DNA of 42,726 nt from the NCBI RefSeq assembly GCF_014696875.1, contig NZ_JACJQV010000204.1, forward strand, positions 1 to 42,726, in the 5' to 3' direction. The notes under the pieces are model-generated. The model worked only from the letters and a program-made list of their open reading frames with translations, did not search any database and was not told the DNA's origin. This document shows, piece after piece, positions 14,271 through 42,482 of the stretch (the stretch's first letter is position 1; each line of letters starts with the position of its first letter). The DNA is from Microcystis wesenbergii FACHB-1317. GTDB taxonomy: Bacteria > Cyanobacteriota > Cyanobacteriia > Cyanobacteriales > Microcystaceae. A program made the translations under genes and the position numbers.

Positions 14271-15284
14271 ATGAAAATAACCCTTTATCAACCGACATTA
14301 TCTTTATTATTGCTGCTCTTGCTATCCGGTGGTTGTGCAGTCAATCAGGAAAAAGGGAAAACCACCACTCCGCCGGCGCCTCCCCTAGCAGAAATCGTTC
14401 CTTGGCAGACCGTCGAACGGGTTACTATTTTAAAAGCCGATCAGGATCCCATCTATGCTTTAGCTATTAGTCCCGATAACTCCCTGCTGCTGAGTGGTAG
14501 TTTTGACGGCACGGTTAGGGAATGGGACCTAAAAACTCAAAAACCTCTCAGGACTTGGCAACTAGGTGATACTGTTAACGCTATCCAATTTAGTCCCGAC
14601 GGTGAGAGTTTCGTAACTGCCGATGCGGGGGGAAAAGTGCAACGCTGGAATACGCGCACGGGAAAATTAGAAATGACCTATCCTGGCCATGCTTTTCTCG
14701 TTACCGATGCCGCTATTTCTCCCGATGGCAAAATTTTGGCCACGGGTAGCTGGGATCGTACTGTTAAACTCTGGGATTTTCAGACGGGTACACTGTTAAA
14801 AACCCTGCGCGGTCATAATCATCCGATTCAGGCGATCGCATTTAGTCCCGATGGTAAAGGAATTGTTAGCGCCGATTACGATGGCTTCGTTAAACTGTGG
14901 AAAGTGAGTACCGGTCGCTTTATTCGTGCCTATGCGGGTAATTTATTCCCGGTTTATCGGGTGCTTTTTTCCAAGGATGGTAATACCGCCGGTACTGCTA
15001 GTCAAGACGGTTCGATCCGCGGTTGGCAAGTGAAAAGCGGCATCGGCACCACTACTATTCTCGCCCATAACGACGCTGTTACCGATATGGCCTTGCTGGA
15101 TGGGGGTAAAGTTTTGGCCAGCACTTCCGGGGATGGAACTGTGAAATTTTGGGATGTTAATACCCGTCAGCATTTGAATACCCTGAAGGGAAACGTCATC
15201 TTAAGAATGGTTGCCAGTCGAGATGGTCGTTGGTTAGTCACTGGAGATCGGGACGGTGCGATCGCACTGTGGCGGGGAATCTAA
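14271..15284 (+). CDS. WD40-repeat lipoprotein
   Basis: The 337-aa protein has an N-terminal signal with a leucine run ending in LSGGC (Cys22), a plausible lipobox, then a Pro/Thr-rich linker and about seven WD40 repeats from residue 55 to the end. Repeats show SPDN/SPDG turns and WD endings such as GTVREWDLKT, RTVKLWDFQT and GTVKFWDVNT. The product is probably a membrane-anchored beta-propeller acting as a protein-interaction scaffold. The last 30 codons (from 15197) are duplicated at 16228, in a tandem duplication that continues into the genes downstream. Confidence 0.85.
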   Translation: MKITLYQPTLSLLLLLLLSGGCAVNQEKGKTTTPPAPPLAEIVPWQTVERVTILKADQDPIYALAISPDNSLLLSGSFDGTVREWDLKTQKPLRTWQLGDTVNAIQFSPDGESFVTADAGGKVQRWNTRTGKLEMTYPGHAFLVTDAAISPDGKILATGSWDRTVKLWDFQTGTLLKTLRGHNHPIQAIAFSPDGKGIVSADYDGFVKLWKVSTGRFIRAYAGNLFPVYRVLFSKDGNTAGTASQDGSIRGWQVKSGIGTTTILAHNDAVTDMALLDGGKVLASTSGDGTVKFWDVNTRQHLNTLKGNVILRMVASRDGRWLVTGDRDGAIALWRGI

Positions 15285-15303
15285 TTAACTATAATTAAGA
15301 CTA

Positions 15304-15421
15304 AGTGAGTGGGTGGAATTAAATATAAGATGAACGTAGGTTGGGTTGAAGCATGAAACCCAACGCCCGCTCAGGTTACGCTACCGCTAACCCATCCTAC
15401 AAATAATTGTGCCTCCCTACT
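15304..15421 (+). mobile_element. 118-bp MITE-like palindromic insertion with TA target duplication
   Basis: Unit A of the tandem duplication has these bases between ...AAGACTA and GAGTGTTTTC, whereas unit B (16330-16340) reads AAGACTAGAGTGTTTTC without them. The insert is flanked by TA on both sides (15302-15303 and 15422-15423). The ends AGTGAGTGGGTGGAATTA and, reversed, AGTAGGGAGGCACAATTA are imperfect inverted repeats (12 of 18 alike). Inside are GTAGGTTGGGTT and AACCCATCCTAC, a hairpin widespread in cyanobacterial genomes. Confidence 0.8.
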
Positions 15422-15450
15422 TAGAGTGTTTTCTAGGGCGAAATATAGCT

Positions 15451-16023
15451 ATGGCAGCAGTGATTTTAAACTTAGATACAGTCAATCTCAGCGATGAGCA
15501 GTTTTACTGTCTCTGTCAAGTTAACCCAGATTGGCAACTGGAAAGAAACGTTCAAGGAGAATTAATTGTCATGCCACCTGTTGGGGGAATTAGCGGCAAC
15601 CGAGAGGCCGATTTTATTAGTTTACTTTGGTTGTGGAATCATCAAACCCGATTGGGTAAAGTCTTTAGTTCGGCGACGATTTTTCGTTTACCGAATGGCG
15701 GAGATCGCGCTCCCGATGCCGCTTGGGTGAGTTTAACTCGTTGGCAAGCTCTGAGTCGAGAAGAACAGGAGAAATTTCCGCCTATTTGTCCCGATTTCGT
15801 TATTGAACTGCGCTCCCGTAGCGATTCCCTCCCAGAAATTCAGGCTAAAATGCAGGAATATCTCCACAGTGGTTTGCGATTAGGTTGGCTAGTTAATCCT
15901 CAACAACAACAGGTGGAAATTTATCGTCCTCAGCAACCCGTAGAAATTATAGAACTACCGGCTAATTTAAGCGGAGAGGATGTCTTACCCGGCTTTAGTC
16001 TATTTATCTCTATTTTTGAGTAA
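15451..16023 (+). CDS. Uma2-family (DUF820) putative endonuclease, copy A
   Basis: The 190-aa protein belongs to Uma2, a PD-(D/E)XK-fold family greatly expanded in cyanobacteria. Visible core pieces are the Asp in APDAAWVS, the strand PDFVIELRSRSD with an E-x-R in place of E-x-K, and the helix EIQAKMQEYLHSGLRLGWLV. Function is unproven; nuclease activity is assumed from the fold. ATG 15451 is chosen because copy B begins at the equivalent codon. It differs from copy B mainly in a 10-residue patch (ISLLWLWNHQ here). Confidence 0.85.
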   Translation: MAAVILNLDTVNLSDEQFYCLCQVNPDWQLERNVQGELIVMPPVGGISGNREADFISLLWLWNHQTRLGKVFSSATIFRLPNGGDRAPDAAWVSLTRWQALSREEQEKFPPICPDFVIELRSRSDSLPEIQAKMQEYLHSGLRLGWLVNPQQQQVEIYRPQQPVEIIELPANLSGEDVLPGFSLFISIFE

Positions 16024-16039
16024 AATATAGTCAAGACTG

Positions 16040-16315
16040 ATGTATGATTCCACTTGTAAATTTATCGCCCTGGAATATTCGAGAGATTTAGCCACTTGGT
16101 TATCAGGTAAACCTTTGGATTTAACCGAAATTAAACCCTCAGAGTTGTCGTTAGAGCCGATAAGAGCCGATGGTTTAATCTTTTTGGAGTCAGAAGAATT
16201 AATCTTACATATTGAGTTCCAAACCGACATCTTAAGAATGGTTGCCAGTCGAGATGGTCGTTGGTTAGTCACTGGAGATCGGGACGGTGCGATCGCACTG
16301 TGGCGGGGAATCTAA
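16040..16315 (+). pseudogene. Chimera: N-terminal part of the Rpn-like gene fused to the WD40 tail
   Basis: The first 63 codons are identical to the start of the Rpn-like gene at 16951 (through IEFQTD). At 16228 the sequence switches to the duplicated end of the WD40 gene and stays open to that gene's own stop, giving a 91-residue hybrid. The hybrid keeps the nuclease residues D44, E59 and Q61 but lacks the rest of the domain. It is a by-product of the tandem duplication. Confidence 0.85.
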
Positions 16316-16361
16316 TTAACTATAATTAAGACTAGAGTGTTTTCTAGGGTGAAATATAGCT

Positions 16362-16934
16362 ATGGCAGCAGTGATTTTAAACTTAGATACAGTCAATCTC
16401 AGCGATGAGCAGTTTTACCGTCTCTGTCAAGTTAACCCAGATTGGCAACTGGAAAGAAACGTTCAAGGAGAATTAATTGTCATGCCACCTGTTGGGGGAA
16501 TTAGCGGCAACCGAGAGGCCGATTTTATCATTGACTTAGGTATCTGGAATCGTCAAACCCGATTGGGTAAAGTCTTTAGTTCGGCGACGATTTTTCGTTT
16601 ACCGAATGGCGGAGATCGCGCTCCCGATGCCGCTTGGGTGAGTTTAACTCGTTGGCAAGCTCTGAGTCGAGAAGAACAGGAGAAATTTCCGCCTATTTGT
16701 CCCGATTTCGTTATTGAACTGCGCTCCCGTAGCGATTCCCTCCCAGAAATTCAGGCTAAAATGCAGGAATATCTCCACAGTGGTTTGCGATTAGGTTGGC
16801 TAGTTAATCCTCAACAACAACAGGTGGAAATTTATCGTCCTCAGCAACCCGTAGAAATTATAGAACTACCGGCTAATTTAAGCGGAGAGGATGTCTTACC
16901 CGGCTTTAGTCTATTTATCTCTATTTTTGAGTAA
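16362..16934 (+). CDS. Uma2-family (DUF820) putative endonuclease, copy B
   Basis: This 190-aa protein is the twin of the gene at 15451 with the same PD-(D/E)XK-like core. The only notable protein difference is the patch IIDLGIWNRQ in place of ISLLWLWNHQ (about residues 50-60); the copy B version is closer to what Uma2 proteins usually show before the RLGKVF strand. Distance to the following Rpn-like gene is 16 bases, so the two are probably cotranscribed. Function unproven, as for copy A. Confidence 0.85.
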   Translation: MAAVILNLDTVNLSDEQFYRLCQVNPDWQLERNVQGELIVMPPVGGISGNREADFIIDLGIWNRQTRLGKVFSSATIFRLPNGGDRAPDAAWVSLTRWQALSREEQEKFPPICPDFVIELRSRSDSLPEIQAKMQEYLHSGLRLGWLVNPQQQQVEIYRPQQPVEIIELPANLSGEDVLPGFSLFISIFE

Positions 16935-16950
16935 AATATAGTCAAGACTG

Positions 16951-17766
16951 ATGTATGATTCCACTTGTAAATTTATCGCCCTGGAATATTCGAGAGATTT
17001 AGCCACTTGGTTATCAGGTAAACCTTTGGATTTAACCGAAATTAAACCCTCAGAGTTGTCGTTAGAGCCGATAAGAGCCGATGGTTTAATCTTTTTGGAG
17101 TCAGAAGAATTAATCTTACATATTGAGTTCCAAACCGACCCTAAAGAGGATATTCCCTATAGAATGCTCGATTATGCCACAAGACTCTATCGACGCTATC
17201 AAGGCCAACCTATCTATCAGGTAGTGATTTATCTAAGGAAAAGTACCTTACCCCTAGTCAGACAGAATGACTATCAACAGGGAAAAACTTATCATCAATT
17301 TGAGGTGATTAGACTATGGGAACAACCCTATCAACCCTTATTGCAAGCACCTGGACTATTGCCCTTTGCTATACTAGGTCAAGCTGAGGAGCAAGAGAAT
17401 TTACTGCGGCAAATCGCCCAAAAAATCGAACAAATCAGCGACAGTCGAGAACAAAGCAATCTGGCTGCCTCCACCGCAATTCTCGCCGGATTAGTATTAA
17501 ACAAAGACATCATTCAACAATTGTTGAGGAAGGATATTATGAAAGAATCTGTCATCTATCAGGAAATTAAAGGGGAAGGAAGACAAGAAGAAGCCATCAA
17601 TTTGCTTCTACGTCTATTAAATCGGCGTATAGGTGGCATTTCTGCCGAATTATCCGCCAATATCCAAAGTCTTTCTCTAGAAAATTTAGAAAACTTAGGA
17701 GAAGCTTTATTAGATTTCCAGTCAGTAGAGGATTTAGAACAATGGCTAGAAAATGAGCGTTTTTAA
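16951..17766 (+). CDS. Rpn-family recombination-promoting nuclease-like protein with DUF4351
   Basis: The 271-aa protein has an N-terminal PD-(D/E)XK domain of Rpn type: D44 (RADGLIFLE) and E59-F-Q61 (HIEFQTD), then YRMLDYATRLYRRY and the strand PIYQVVIYL. A linker (LRQIAQKIEQISDSREQSNL) leads to a C-terminal DUF4351 module (about 205-271: LLLRLLNRRIGGISAELSAN to LLDFQSVEDLEQWL). Rpn proteins are DNA endonucleases tied to recombination and phage defence. Codon 197 is an ATG with GAGG 9 bases upstream, just before the DUF4351 module. Its first 63 codons are duplicated at 16040 and its last 85 at 18191. Confidence 0.88.
   Translation: MYDSTCKFIALEYSRDLATWLSGKPLDLTEIKPSELSLEPIRADGLIFLESEELILHIEFQTDPKEDIPYRMLDYATRLYRRYQGQPIYQVVIYLRKSTLPLVRQNDYQQGKTYHQFEVIRLWEQPYQPLLQAPGLLPFAILGQAEEQENLLRQIAQKIEQISDSREQSNLAASTAILAGLVLNKDIIQQLLRKDIMKESVIYQEIKGEGRQEEAINLLLRLLNRRIGGISAELSANIQSLSLENLENLGEALLDFQSVEDLEQWLENERF
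17526..17541 (+). promoter_or_regulatory. Intragenic Shine-Dalgarno and ATG before the DUF4351 module
   Basis: GAGGAAGGATATTATG places GAGG nine bases ahead of in-frame ATG 17539. Translation from here would give a 75-residue protein consisting of the C-terminal module alone (17539-17766). The same arrangement recurs at 18205-18220, 41137-41152 and, as AAGGAAATTTATTATG, at 42062-42077. Confidence 0.5.
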
Positions 17767-17815
17767 CTAATTTACTGCGGTTATTTTTATTCTATTAATT
17801 CCCTCTATTATCATT

Positions 17816-18157
17816 ATGTCAGATCATCAAGCTAGTTATGCCGTCAATGCAATGTTAGGTCGATTGTATTTGAAAAATAAGGCGTTTCAGTCCCTAAGTT
17901 TTGAAGAACAACAGTCGATAGTTTTGGACATAATTAAAGAATCATTCCGTTGCGATGTCAATATCGGTGAAATTCTCAGTAATGAGTGTTTTTATGATTT
18001 TGATGATGTGGAAGAACAGAGAACGATAGCAACGATATTTCAAATTTGTTCCTACTGTGGTCAAGCATCAGCTAACGTACAAGACGATGGAGATAATTTT
18101 AGCAAAGCAGCAATTTGTTCCGCTTGTCTTGCTCAATATTTCCCCGGTGGATATTAG
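17816..18157 (+). CDS. Hypothetical protein with C-terminal Cys pairs
   Basis: The 113-aa protein is not assigned to a family. Its first two thirds are helical and acidic (FEEQQSIVLDIIKESFRCD). The C-terminal third has CSYCG and CSACL, two CxxC pairs 21 residues apart that could hold a zinc ion as a small ribbon. It sits between the Rpn-like gene and the detached copy of that gene's C-terminal module, 49 bases after the former, so it appears inserted within, or captured by, the duplication. ATG 17816 is the only reasonable start. Confidence 0.65.
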   Translation: MSDHQASYAVNAMLGRLYLKNKAFQSLSFEEQQSIVLDIIKESFRCDVNIGEILSNECFYDFDDVEEQRTIATIFQICSYCGQASANVQDDGDNFSKAAICSACLAQYFPGGY

Positions 18158-18217
18158 AGATAATTTAATCTCAACCTAGGGATAATCAATATTCAACAAT
18201 TGTTGAGGAAGGACATT

Positions 18218-18445
18218 ATGAAAGAATCTGTTATCTATCAGGAAATTAAAGAGGAAGGAAGACAAGAAGGAGCTGTCAACTTGCTTCTACGTCAATTAAA
18301 TCGGCGTATAGGTGGCATTTCTGCCGAATTATCCACCAATATCCAAAGTCTTTCTCTAGAAAATTTAGAAAACTTAGGAGAAGCTTTATTAGATTTTCAG
18401 TCAGTAGATGATTTAGAACAATGGCTAGAAAATGAGAGTTTTTAA
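18218..18445 (+). CDS. Free-standing DUF4351 module (copy of the Rpn C-terminus)
   Basis: Bases 18191-18445 repeat 17512-17766 of the Rpn-like gene with few changes. The duplicate begins just ahead of the GAGGAAGGA ribosome-binding site, so ATG 18218 gives a 75-aa protein with a complete DUF4351 segment (LLLRQLNRRIGGISAELSTN ... SLENLENLGEALLDF). A longer form from TTG 18200 is possible but less likely. The frame is fully open. It could act as a partner or inhibitor of the full-length nuclease. Confidence 0.6.
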   Translation: MKESVIYQEIKEEGRQEGAVNLLLRQLNRRIGGISAELSTNIQSLSLENLENLGEALLDFQSVDDLEQWLENESF

Positions 18446-18451
18446 CTAAAA

Positions 18452-19258
18452 TTACTGTCCAAATAAAACCGAACTATTGCCAGATCCTTGGAACAAGATC
18501 CAGGTCATCAGCAGATTAGATACAAAAATCGCTAAGAGCATAGTGACTACGGCTGCGGTAGTAGCTTGGCCGACTCCTTTAGCACCGCCATCGGTCGTTA
18601 AACCCCAATTACAGCCGATAATCGCGATTAAAGCCCCAAAAACCACCCCTTTAACCGGTCCACTCAGCACATCTCCCACACCCAGAAAACCGCGAACCGA
18701 GTCGAGAAAAACTGAATTAGCAATCCCGTATAAACTTTGGCCGACTAGCAAACCGCTACCTAAACCGATCAGCAACGCCATAACACTCAAAGCGGGAACC
18801 ATCAGACAACAGGCAATTAAACGGGGCAGCACCAGATATTCTACAGGATCGGTTTTGAGCATATAGAGTGCGTCGATCTGCTCTGTCACCTTCATGGTGC
18901 CGATTTCCGCCGCAAAAGCCGATCCTACCCGACCGGCTACCACGATCGCCATCATAATGGGACAGAGTTCCCGACCGAGAGCAAGGGCCAAAATTCCCCC
19001 CACCATACTGCCAGCACCCAAAGCTTGGAACTCCCGCGCCACTTGGATCGTAAAAATCATCCCGATCACCGCAGCCGTGATCATGGCGATAATCAGCGAG
19101 GCGGGCCCGGCTGCTACCATTTGTTCTTGGGTGACGCGCCAATCGGGTTGGCGCGTGAATAGGAAGTAAAAAACCCTGCCGGTTAATAGTACCGCTAACC
19201 AACAGCGCCGAAACCAGGAGCTTAATTCCTTGCTAAAAATTGCCAATAAATCCTTCAT
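18452..19258 (-). CDS. mlaE: MlaE-type permease of the lipid ABC transporter
   Basis: The 268-aa inner-membrane protein has five to six hydrophobic segments and family landmarks such as VAREFQALGAGSMVGGILA (cytoplasmic coupling helix with LALGRELCPIMMAIVVAGRV), GSAFAAEIGTMKVTEQIDAL and YLVLPRLIACCLMVPALSV. It would pair with MlaF at 9270 and MlaD at 10425 to move phospholipids or related lipids. ATG 19258 begins MKDLLAIFSKELSSWF and matches usual length. An upstream ATG (19318) would add 20 residues. It is convergent with the DUF4351 copy at 18445, only 6 bases apart. Confidence 0.92.
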   Translation of the reverse strand: MKDLLAIFSKELSSWFRRCWLAVLLTGRVFYFLFTRQPDWRVTQEQMVAAGPASLIIAMITAAVIGMIFTIQVAREFQALGAGSMVGGILALALGRELCPIMMAIVVAGRVGSAFAAEIGTMKVTEQIDALYMLKTDPVEYLVLPRLIACCLMVPALSVMALLIGLGSGLLVGQSLYGIANSVFLDSVRGFLGVGDVLSGPVKGVVFGALIAIIGCNWGLTTDGGAKGVGQATTAAVVTMLLAIFVSNLLMTWILFQGSGNSSVLFGQ

Positions 19259-19666
19259 GGCCCTCAAAATCGATCGGACTAGAGAAAAGTCTATCCTGTT
19301 TTGTCTTCTAACTCCCATTCCCTACCATGCTATGGATAGTGCAGAATTTTTGTACTAGACCTCTGGCAAAAATCAAAAATCTTCCGTTAGGTGAGGAGTA
19401 AGGAGCCAGTAGTCTCGGAGTCAGGAAAATTAAGAATGAGCATTAATCAATTAAATGCTCTATTTAGTGATTTTAGGCAATTTTATGCCTATTTTTCTCA
19501 TTTTTGCCCTCTCAAAAATTAATTATGGAAGAACTCTAGTATAGACCTCCTTTCCACACAGAAACCAGAAGAGCCGAATAGATCAATGAATTACTTTTCA
19601 TTCCCAGAAAAAGCGATTGATCAGATGCTTTGATCTTGTACGCACAAAAATGTATATATTGATGAT
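19259..19666. other. Intergenic stretch without a recognised gene
   Basis: About 400 AT-rich bases between mlaE and brnT, read on both strands. It contains a possible mlaE promoter region and a short repeat (GGAAGAACTCTAGTATAGACC and relatives) but no convincing reading frame, hairpin terminator or RNA gene. The brnT promoter would lie near 19640-19660 (TTGTAC ... TATATT), a weak match. Confidence 0.5.
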
Positions 19667-37479: not shown

Positions 37480-38063
37480 TTAGGCTTGATTAAGCCAATT
37501 GATTAAGTCAGCTTGACTCTCAAAGTCTAGTAATGCTTCTCCTCAGTCTTCTAATTGTTCAACGGCTAGTTTTTCGATAGTTTCGGTAATATTCGGGGGC
37601 AGTTGACCAAAACGTCGGTTAAGCAAGCGTAGCACTAGCTTGGCTTCTCCTTTTTGAAGTCCGATGGCTTCTCCTTGTTGAATCGCTTTTTCTCTATCTT
37701 GTTCGTATAAAGGGGCTAAACGCATAATAAATTTCCTCTCCTCTTGGGTTCTTTTTGGTAAGGCTTGCAAGTTCCTACTCAAATTGTATAATAATTTTAA
37801 GGAAGCTGATTTTAAGGGATTATGGGGAGATAATGCCTCTAATTCATCAATCGCTCTGGTTCTGGTTCCTCCTCTACCTAATAATCTTAACCAAAGGGTT
37901 TCAGGGGTTTCGGGTAATTGATGCAGTACAATAAGGGATGTGGTTAATGCTGGAGGTAAAAAATAAATTCCTTCTCCCCAATCTGGATGATTGAGAGCGG
38001 AAAAAGCAGTTATAATTCTTTGACTGGCCGTAGGAGTTAGTATCCATAGTCTAGGAATATTTT
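37480..38063 (-). pseudogene. Truncated Rpn-like/DUF4351 gene relic with a nonsense codon
   Basis: The minus-strand sequence matches the second two thirds of the gene at 40499 (from NIPRLWILTPTASQRI to the end) with about 95% identity. The 5' part is missing, cut at about 38063. In the C-terminal module LEDL has become LED-stop through a TGA at 37543-37545, after which the frame continues GEALLDFESQADLINWLNQA to TAA 37480. The intragenic ATG site is still present at about 37725 (GGAAATTTATTATG on the minus strand). It is inverted relative to its two relatives at 40499 and 41451. Confidence 0.9.
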
Positions 38064-40446: not shown

Positions 40447-42300
40447 AGGCTTTGAAGATGATAAAATAACCATCATCATTGATTTGATCACTTAAGCCTT
40501 GACTCGCTTTCTTTGGGATAAATTTAGTAAAGATTACCTCGAAACCTTTCTCTCTTCTTCCGGTGACGTGAAAACTAGCCTTGATGTGACGGCAGAAACT
40601 CAAGAAATTGATGTCTATTTTCGACCGACTTCCCCAGAAATGCCGCCCGAATTAGGTTTATTGGGCCGATTAGCTCAAACCCCTTGTCTATTGGAACCCT
40701 ATCGCAATCCGGTCACGATTGATGGCATTATTGCCTGTTTATCTAAACTGTTGACTGTGCGGGAACAATTACAAAGAGAAGCTCACCGTCATCAACAACC
40801 CTTATTAGCAGAAAATATCCCTAGACTATGGATACTAACTCCTACGGCCAGTCAAAGAATTATAACTGCTTTTTCCGCTCTCAATCATCCAGATTGGGGA
40901 GAAGGAATTTATTTTTTACCTCCAGCATTAACCACATCCCTTATTGTACTGCATCAATTACCCGAAACCCCTGAAACCCTTTGGTTAAGATTATTAGGTA
41001 GAGGAGGAACCAGAACCAGAGCGATTGATGAATTAGAGGCATTATCTCCCCATAATCCCTTAAAATCAGCTTCCTTAAAATTATTATACAATTTGAGTAG
41101 GAACTTGCAAGCCTTACCCAAAAGAACCCAGGAGGAGAGGAAATTTATTATGCGTTTAGCCCCTTTATACGAACAAGATAGAGAAGCAGCGATTCAACAA
41201 GGAGAAGCCAAGGTAGTGCTACGTCAACTAAAGCGACGTTTTGGTGAACTTCCCCCGCATATTACCGAAACTATCCAAAAACTCTCAGTAGAAAAATTAG
41301 AAGACTTAGGAGAAGCATTGCTAGACTTTGAGACTCAAGCTGACTTAATTAATTGGCTGACCTAATAAATAGGCTTTGAAGATGATAAAATAATCATCAT
41401 CATTGATTTAATCACTTAGGTCTTGACTCGCTTTCTTTGGGATAAATTTAGTGAAAGACTACCTCGAAACCTTTCTCTCTTCTTCCGGTGACGTGAAAAC
41501 TAGCCTTGCTGTGACGGCAAAAACTCAAGAAATCGATGTCTATTTTCGACCGACTTCCCCAGAAATGCCGCCCGAATTAGGTTTATTGGGCCGATTAGCT
41601 CAAACCCCTTGTCTATTGGAACCCCATCGCAATCCTGTCACGATTGAGGGAATTCTCGCTTGTTTATCTCAACTGTTGACTGTGCGGGAACAATTACAAA
41701 GAGAAGCTCACCGTCATCAACAACCCTTATTAGCAGAAAATATCCCTAGACTATGGATACTAACTCCTACGGCCAGTCAAAGAATTATAACTGCTTTTTC
41801 CGCTCTCAATCATCCAGATTGGGGAGAAGGAATTTACTTTTTACCTCCAGCATTAACCACAGCCATTATTGTCCTGCATCAATTACCTGAAACCCCTAAA
41901 ACCCTTTGGTTAAGATTATTAGGTAGAGGAGGAACCAGAACCAGAGCAATTGATGAATTAGAGGCCTTGTCTCCTAGTCATCCCTTTAAATCAGCTTCCT
42001 TAAAATTATTATACAATTTGAGTAGGAACTTGCAAACCTTACCCAAAAGAACCCAGGAGGAAAGGAAATTTATTATGCGTTTAGCCCCTTTATACGAACA
42101 AGATAGAGAAGCAGCGATTCAAAAAGGAGAAGCTATCGGACTTCAAAAAGGTAGAATCGAAGGGATTCAACAAGGAGAAGCCATCGGACTTCAAAAAGAA
42201 GCATCCAAGTTAGTGCTACGTCAACTAAAGCGACGTTTTGGTGAACTTCCCCCGCATATCACCGAAACTATCCAAAAACTCTCAGTAGAAAAATTAGAAG
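40447..42300 (+). repeat. Tandem duplication of an Rpn-like/DUF4351 gene unit
   Basis: The segment beginning AGGCTTTGAAGATGATAAAATAA at 40447 recurs at 41371 (924-base period), covering promoter-proximal sequence and the whole coding region. Identity is very high. The second copy has one extra G near 41451 and a longer run of GEAIGLQKG-type repeats. Confidence 0.92.
40499..41365 (+). CDS. Rpn-like putative nuclease with C-terminal DUF4351, copy 1
   Basis: The 288-aa protein starts from TTG 40499 (TRFLWDKFSKDYLETFLSSS), a common beginning of this cyanobacterial family. The core has EIDVYFRP as the acidic strand of a probable PD-(D/E)XK-like fold, LWILTPTASQRIITAF and GIYFLPPALTTSLIVLHQLP. A helical stretch with QALPKRTQEERKFIMRLAPL leads to the DUF4351 module (about 240-288). 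The ATG at codon 218 has GAGG nine bases upstream (41137-41152), the same spacing as in the other Rpn-like gene at 16951. Role as nuclease is inferred from relatives. Confidence 0.75.
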   Translation: MTRFLWDKFSKDYLETFLSSSGDVKTSLDVTAETQEIDVYFRPTSPEMPPELGLLGRLAQTPCLLEPYRNPVTIDGIIACLSKLLTVREQLQREAHRHQQPLLAENIPRLWILTPTASQRIITAFSALNHPDWGEGIYFLPPALTTSLIVLHQLPETPETLWLRLLGRGGTRTRAIDELEALSPHNPLKSASLKLLYNLSRNLQALPKRTQEERKFIMRLAPLYEQDREAAIQQGEAKVVLRQLKRRFGELPPHITETIQKLSVEKLEDLGEALLDFETQADLINWLT

Positions 42301-42482
42301 ACTTAGGAGAAGCATTACTAGACTTTGAGACTCAAGCTGACTTAATCAATTGGCTGACCCCCACTTGTTTGACCCAATCCATAATGGTTGTTCGTGACAC
42401 TCCTGTCACTCTCTCAATGCCTCGAAATCCCAGGCCATTTACCTACATTTTCAGACAGATACGCTTAACATCATCGCTATAG
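41451..42482 (+). CDS. Rpn-like putative nuclease with DUF4351, copy 2, frameshifted start and fused end
   Basis: This copy matches copy 1, but an extra G after TTTAGT throws the natural TTG start (41423) out of frame; the frame shown opens at GTG 41451 (VKDYLETFLSSS) and misses the first ~10 residues. The linker before DUF4351 has additional GEAIGLQK repeats. The normal stop after NWLT is gone: the gene runs at about 42360 into an antisense IS1-like transposase fragment and gains about 40 unrelated residues. The intragenic ATG is at 42075. Activity of the full form is doubtful. Confidence 0.7.
   Translation: MKDYLETFLSSSGDVKTSLAVTAKTQEIDVYFRPTSPEMPPELGLLGRLAQTPCLLEPHRNPVTIEGILACLSQLLTVREQLQREAHRHQQPLLAENIPRLWILTPTASQRIITAFSALNHPDWGEGIYFLPPALTTAIIVLHQLPETPKTLWLRLLGRGGTRTRAIDELEALSPSHPFKSASLKLLYNLSRNLQTLPKRTQEERKFIMRLAPLYEQDREAAIQKGEAIGLQKGRIEGIQQGEAIGLQKEASKLVLRQLKRRFGELPPHITETIQKLSVEKLEDLGEALLDFETQADLINWLTPTCLTQSIMVVRDTPVTLSMPRNPRPFTYIFRQIRLTSSL

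Follow-up and report, generated by a model that had tools for sequence, protein, structure and literature searches.

Can an antitoxin that lies inside a toxin gene also be released as a gene of its own? The question is raised by a contig of the bloom-forming cyanobacterium Microcystis wesenbergii FACHB-1317 (NZ_JACJQV010000204.1), of which positions 1 to 42,726 were analysed; this whole 42,726-nucleotide (nt) stretch is referred to as the window. Here a gene for an Rpn-like protein of the PD-(D/E)XK nuclease type, with a C-terminal DUF4351 module, is followed by a second, stand-alone copy of that module. In Escherichia coli, internally started C-terminal tails of Rpn proteins switch off the nuclease, according to Zhong et al. 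2023 (PMC10327210). From the sequence evidence we consider it probable that the window gene is a cyanobacterial Rpn gene-within-gene toxin-antitoxin, to which the free copy would add inhibitor in trans.

A probable internal start ahead of the DUF4351 module

A first, sequence-only reading of the locus had claimed a strong Shine-Dalgarno (SD) signal just before the module, GAGG placed nine bases ahead of the ATG at 17539, and this signal was seen. GAGG (17526-17529) and AAGGA (17530-17534) both lie in register with the ATG, and the same two signals stand ahead of the ATG of the free gene. The duplex has a calculated energy of -7.7 kcal/mol at each of the two sites and of -0.5 kcal/mol at the outer start of the fused gene (all duplex energies were calculated with ACCUCCUUU, which we take to be the anti-SD sequence). 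A pattern for the 16S 3' end carrying this sequence matched in none of four genomes, G000 among them, three of which consist of two contigs. Within the window, -7.7 or better was found at six of 153 internal in-frame ATGs and at two of the first ATGs of 26 long open reading frames (ORFs), which average -2.5 and are candidate starts.

Both sites belong to a 259-nt repeat, 95% identical between its copies and spaced by 679 bp (Table 1), which begins 27 nt 5' of the internal ATG and ends past the stop codon of the module. The presence of the SD-ATG-module unit in fused and in stand-alone form is therefore confirmed. At 91% identity, the two 75-aa products differ at seven positions (counted by eye), and both modules exceed the PF14261 (DUF4351) gathering cut-off of 25 bits (fused, E 3.9e-24, 84.9 bits; free, E 9.8e-27, 93.2 bits). 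The second copy had been called an adjacent duplicate; it does repeat the same SD, ATG and module, but the copies do not adjoin each other, since 451 bp with a 113-aa ORF separate the parent stop from the free ATG. The 5' edge of the repeat carries the palindrome TCAACAATTGTTGA. It appears in a 60-nt fold as a hairpin immediately 5' of AAGGA and could be a hairpin or the mark of a breakpoint; Rfam gave no match within 15000-19500.

Is the internal start peculiar to this gene? Relatives were drawn from the best 80 of at least 530 loci of a genome scan, in which 85 frames matched; six short frames were dropped, and the 79 of at least 200 aa, together with the window gene, left 57 non-redundant cyanobacterial sequences after redundancy removal at 85%. 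The internal Met codon is ATG in 56 of these and GTG in one. The SD reaches -5 kcal/mol or better at 51 of 56 internal starts (five are weaker), compared with 13 of 217 other internal Met codons in the same genes, and the means are -6.9 (n=56) and -0.9, respectively. The codon choice for Arg193, four codons upstream of the Met, is AGG or CGG in 48/54 cases, compared with 155/644 when 16 other conserved Arg columns are pooled; one of these, column 71, is likewise rich in these codons (36/57). The P values of these comparisons (1e-21, 3e-27) overstate the significance because the sequences are related to each other. The outer start is weaker than the internal one in 48 of 52 testable genes (mean -0.96 versus -6.9), and a DUF4351 tail is recognised by strict score in 32/57 relatives.

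The E. coli K-12 genes served as a control. The internal ATG with the best SD falls at codon 244 in rpnA, rpnB and rpnE, at 245 in rpnD (a pseudogene) and at 241/242 (a tie) in rpnC; the internal SD of rpnA has -8.3 kcal/mol. An internal start is described for all five E. coli rpn genes, with M244 named for RpnA (PMC10327210). The outer starts of these genes are also weaker than the internal ones (5/5), with a smaller gap (-3.8 to -7.8 versus -7.2 to -10.8). Codon-level conservation across cyanobacteria and this control strongly support the candidate initiation site, so that internal initiation in the fused gene is very likely and the start looks selected.

Table 1 Features of the fused gene, the repeat and the stand-alone gene in the window
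Feature	Position	Strand	Basis
Rpn-like PD-(D/E)XK gene, 271 aa, C-terminal DUF4351 (RpnL-like, proposed toxin)	16951..17766	+	
Internal Shine-Dalgarno GAGGAAGGA	17526..17534	+	sequence; -7.7 kcal/mol; Arg193 codon bias in relatives
Internal ORF, 75 aa, DUF4351 module (RpnS-like, proposed antitoxin)	17539..17766	+	
Repeat copy 1 (SD + ATG + module + stop)	17512..17770	+	
113-aa ORF between the two module copies	17816..18157	+	part of the 679-bp interval
Repeat copy 2	18191..18449	+	
Shine-Dalgarno of the stand-alone gene, GAGGAAGGA	18205..18213	+	sequence; duplex energy
Stand-alone DUF4351 gene, 75 aa (putative released RpnS-like gene)	18218..18445	+	
Perfect palindrome TCAACAATTGTTGA, 5' edge of repeat, coding in copy 1	17514..17527; second copy 18193-18206		by eye

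Recurrence and fate of the free module

These data raise a second question: has the module been released once or repeatedly? Six independent tandem cases of a free module behind a fused parent were found. Measured against the closest fused gene, the 5' edge of homology lies 16-27 nt ahead of the ATG in five of them, namely the window locus, G026:C115, G026:C166, G037:C27 and G087/G143 (G numbers denote genomes; G087 and G143 are of one genus and were counted once), while in the sixth, G012, the cut lies further upstream, at -141. With breaks placed uniformly over a 150-nt range, five of six within 30 nt corresponds to P ~0.002, a value that is indicative only. Two further copies behind a parent (G143, G010), with homology reaching 595-734 nt upstream, were excluded from the six as frameshifted full-length genes. 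The distance from parent stop to free ATG is 451 nt in the window and 30, 75, 11, -1, -1 and 169 nt in G026:C115, G026:C166, G037:C27, G087, G143 and G012. In G087 and G143 (loci L186 and L187) the free module thus overlaps the parent stop codon (TAATG / TGATG), which suggests translational coupling.

Where no parent was seen upstream, cuts 7-21 nt ahead of the first profile position of the module were found in G027:C217, G048:C3, G049, G122 and G339. In a sample biased toward loci with short open frames, 19 of the 62 free or short modules listed start within 30 nt of that position; four of the 19 are orthologues at the window's locus, one is an insertion in G003, and three align at less than 75% identity, so that their end is possibly mere divergence. 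The remaining modules of the 62 start further upstream, inside the module or without a DNA alignment, and many other short modules are longer remnants.

The modules also vary in length. Relatives differ by four-residue repeats (GREE, GRQE) that start ~12 residues after the Met, and the helix from the Met to RR is longer in the parent than in the free copy by 0, 12, 8, 8, 4, 4 and 8 residues (pairs in the order given above, window first), always by whole repeats. A rule that free copies are always shorter was dropped: it holds in 6/7 cyanobacterial pairs (two of the six being from one genus), the window's copies are equal, and E. coli ypaA is longer than its parent.

What has become of the free copy within the genus? 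Among the 12 Microcystis genomes compared, two copies with an intact free ORF are present in G000, G002, G003 and G008. The free copy is 5'-truncated in G010 and G007 (in the latter the locus is split across two contigs and the 113-aa ORF is broken), a single copy is present in G006 and in G011, which is of the same species as the window, short relics remain in G001, G004 and G005, and a match to the locus was not seen in G009. Other Microcystis genomes share the duplication, which therefore did not arise recently in this strain. The one-copy state is the outcome that would be expected of recombination between the repeats; as this state lacks the 113-aa ORF, simple tandem duplication presumably cannot yield the two-copy state.

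The 113-aa ORF has matches in 6/12 genomes of the genus, each of which lies at this locus as judged by position (the G007 match spans 20 aa only), and sporadically in 16/388 genomes of the order, with some matches short or broken. It carries two CxxC pairs, has a 73% identical match in a genome of another genus and matched no Pfam family. In G003 (L084, 3426-3528), an insertion of ~100 bp with stop codons immediately before the internal ATG parts the nuclease domain from the module, and both remain open.

A comparison of eight fused-position and four free modules revealed 0 fixed differences, 16 shared polymorphisms and all four combinations at 97/171 site pairs in the four-gamete test; fused and free copies thus exchange sequence. 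The ratio of nonsynonymous to synonymous polymorphism (pN/pS), from few sequences, is 0.21 for the fused modules, 0.35 for the four free copies, all of which are open, and 0.54 for the 113-aa ORF. As evidence of free-copy function this ratio is weakened by the exchange.

The main rival explanation takes up exactly these observations: the free copy would be a functionless duplication fragment, kept similar by recombination, and only the internal start of the fused gene would matter. The patchy survival of the copy (intact in 4/12 genomes and truncated, absent, reduced to a relic or not found elsewhere) and the exchange of polymorphisms are in line with such a fragment, as is the annotation of its E. 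coli counterpart, ypaA, as a pseudogene in RefSeq. However, the SD, ATG and frame are retained in the four intact copies, with a pN/pS of 0.35, the cut just 5' of the ribosome-binding site recurs in other genera and in E. coli, the parent's stop codon shares bases with the free ORF in G087 and G143, and a tagged YpaA product has been detected (PMC10327210). We regard a functionless fragment as rather unlikely, and the free copy as likely to be a working antitoxin gene. The claim that the short product has gained its own gene is accordingly upheld in part: recurrence and the rpnE-ypaA parallel speak for a stand-alone RpnS-like gene, but such a separate gene is an arrangement already known, the two-copy state predates the strain, and the copy is intact in a third of the genomes compared.

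A second alternative assigns the short product a different role, that of a helper subunit: like Cas11d with Cas10d, it would complete the nuclease or direct it to its target instead of inhibiting it. Internal in-frame products can indeed be complementary, Cas11d of Synechocystis being an example (PMC10327210), and the free copies of other genera differ from their parents in repeat number; we consider this role improbable.

Candidate internal starts in other N-terminal families

Is the internal start tied to the Rpn-like N-terminal domain? Other cyanobacterial DUF4351 (PF14261) proteins carry a module like that of the window, under a family name that carries no function. This genome has 22 DUF4351 matches, 20 of them above the cut-off; matches are present in 40/50 genomes of the family, one of which has 42, and at least 150 in-frame residues precede 104/161 modules of the sample. 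The 109 fused genes of the family-level set form four blastp groups, distinct at E 1e-8, and one singleton that resembles a broken member of the second group. One group is DUF2887 and two show a weak, sub-threshold likeness to Transposase_31; because of this shared likeness, the four groups may be distant kin.

After redundancy removal at 80%, an ATG in the linker was present in 32/32 fused genes, with a mean SD of -7.9 versus -1.9 at 63 other in-frame ATGs, and with -5 or better in 29/32 versus 8/63. Codons for E, K, Q and R, with one value given per group, end in G within the SD window in 15/26, 6/8, 15/18 and 6/8 cases, and in 272/1190, 29/147, 213/775 and 77/266 cases elsewhere (P 1.7e-4, 1.8e-3, 1.8e-6 and 0.011); in genes with several linker ATGs the best one was chosen, which biases toward this enrichment. 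The four groups differ in linker sequence. When single genes were shuffled synonymously, P ranged from 0.006 to 0.77 for the group of the window gene and from 0.021 to 0.194 for the other groups. A further alternative, by which a conserved protein motif (LLRxDIMxESVIYQ) accounts for the internal Met and SD without any translation start there, is very improbable: the protein sequence does show conservation of the motif and the single-gene shuffles are often non-significant alone, yet the synonymous Arg choice is skewed to AGG/CGG (column 71 being also high), the sole Met change among the 57 relatives leads to GTG, another start codon, and the G-ending codons are enriched in four groups with different linkers.

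The window itself holds three further DUF4351 genes, of another N-terminal group, at 37492-37662 (-), 40499-41365 (+) and 41451-42482 (+); one is interrupted by a stop, and their linkers have an SD ahead of an ATG (QEERKFIM). In one Microcystis genome, 12 DUF4351 matches stand in tandem with a period of ~900 bp (L108, G010:C1:3073423-3084979).

Taken more broadly, and tentatively, DUF4351 with its own ribosome-binding site might be a portable antitoxin cassette, joined in cyanobacteria to at least four nuclease-like N-terminal families, whose linkers do not match one another and each carry an internal start, and repeatedly freed as an SD-ATG-module unit. Fused and free copies would then co-diversify in Microcystis, and mismatched free copies elsewhere may act on other nucleases or represent retired specificity.

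Kinship with E. coli Rpn and the proposed system

The Rpn-like label was assessed by comparing a profile of 52 sequences with E. coli RpnA/B/C/E in hhalign (probability 93%, E 3.4e-7, query columns 54-254; 19% identity between the family profiles). The alignment takes in the tail and a portion of the nuclease core; ExQ is aligned and D44 lies outside the aligned part. D44, E59 and Q61, presumably the catalytic motif, are kept in 56/57, 55/57 and 57/57 relatives. A search of PDB sequences gave no match for the full 271-aa protein and, for the 75-aa product, matches at E 0.15 or worse only, with spike chains among the matches listed (60 of 110), and PADLOC has no family for either window protein, fused or stand-alone.

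In the proposed system, a weak outer start would yield little full-length, RpnL-like nuclease, and the strong internal SD-ATG an excess of the 75-aa, RpnS-like module. Through its first helix, the short product would attach to the nuclease's own copy of the module and keep the enzyme inactive. The second SD-ATG-module unit, 451 bp downstream, would supply more inhibitor in trans; such a system may serve in phage defence. The E. coli RpnS tail is described as a three-helix bundle with four-residue repeats in the first helix, 8-20 residues after the internal Met, and one extra repeat abolishes inhibition unless both partners carry it (PMC10327210). The RpnS bundle is a dimer in PDB 7TH0. The position of the repeats in the cyanobacterial relatives fits the description of the tail. 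Neither of the window's two modules has an extra repeat, and by the E. coli matching rule the free module, equal in helix spacing, should fit its parent.

Several observations weigh against the proposed system. The N-terminal domain scores 35.9 bits with TIGR01784, under the curated NCBIfam cut-off of 52.1, which leaves the Rpn-like label weak by this curated model. The module alone gave a weak match to E. coli RpnS (probability 75%), and the E. coli Rpn tails had no match with the cyanobacterial module profile. RefSeq annotates RpnE as inactive, in addition to the pseudogene status of ypaA. The promoter signal is not above chance (8 sigma-70-like sites versus 5.8 +/- 2.2 expected), with one site on the + strand at 17267-17295. 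Among free modules, the ATG at G049:2615707 is without an SD (+0.3), and over the range searched neither ATG nor GTG occurs in G023:C183, which is cut at -29. An intact free copy was seen at the Microcystis locus in only four of the 12 genomes, and exchange with the fused copy can keep the free ORF open without selection on it. Finally, in all tandem pairs but the window's, whose helices are equal, the free copy is 4-12 residues shorter in the repeat helix, a difference that under the E. coli matching rule would keep it from inhibiting its own parent.

At 15191-16334, a separate tandem duplication spans the 3' end of the WD40 gene, a Uma2 gene and the beginning of the Rpn-like gene, and yields a chimeric ORF (16040-16315) in which the Rpn N-terminus is joined to the WD40 tail. 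The Uma2 and WD40 genes were set aside as parts of the system, as they belong to this duplication, which none of the other loci compared shows. The Uma2 protein (16362-16934) has a weak match to the PADLOC candidate defence family PDC-S03 (E 2.7e-7). In viral contigs, nine pattern matches were obtained and none was confirmed.

Our literature search found nothing on DUF4351 beyond Zhong et al. 2023 (PMC10327210) and no work linking Microcystis genomes with toxin-antitoxin systems and Rpn. The arrangement itself is not new, as RpnS is sometimes a separate gene, annotated as DUF4351 in some species (PMC10327210). What is new is the cyanobacterial breadth, the internal starts in several N-terminal families and, in Microcystis, the sequence exchange between the fused and the free form of the module. 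Inside-gene antitoxins have been shown in E. coli, and the codon evidence suggests that selection also acts on this design in cyanobacteria. There, the putative inhibitor has repeatedly been set free as a separate gene, with a cut point that can be recognised. This offers a testable task for a class of small proteins annotated without function, and the natural series of free copies, matched or mismatched in repeat number, suits a test of the specificity rule.

Among the known systems closest to the window pair, E. coli RpnA/RpnAS shares the internal start with a strong SD, but no free copy is annotated next to rpnA. Both rpnE-ypaA and rpnC with a free rpnCS have been described (PMC10327210), and a small product was reported from a cloned C. 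difficile rpn gene. A close parallel is rpnE-ypaA (rpnES), a PD-(D/E)XK nuclease-like gene with an internal SD-ATG and a free tail copy downstream, in which ypaA begins with a copy of the internal SD of rpnE (AAAAGGAGAGATTAATG in both) right after the rpnE stop. There the free copy lies directly behind its parent and is one four-residue repeat longer, whereas in the window the two are 451 bp apart and of equal length.
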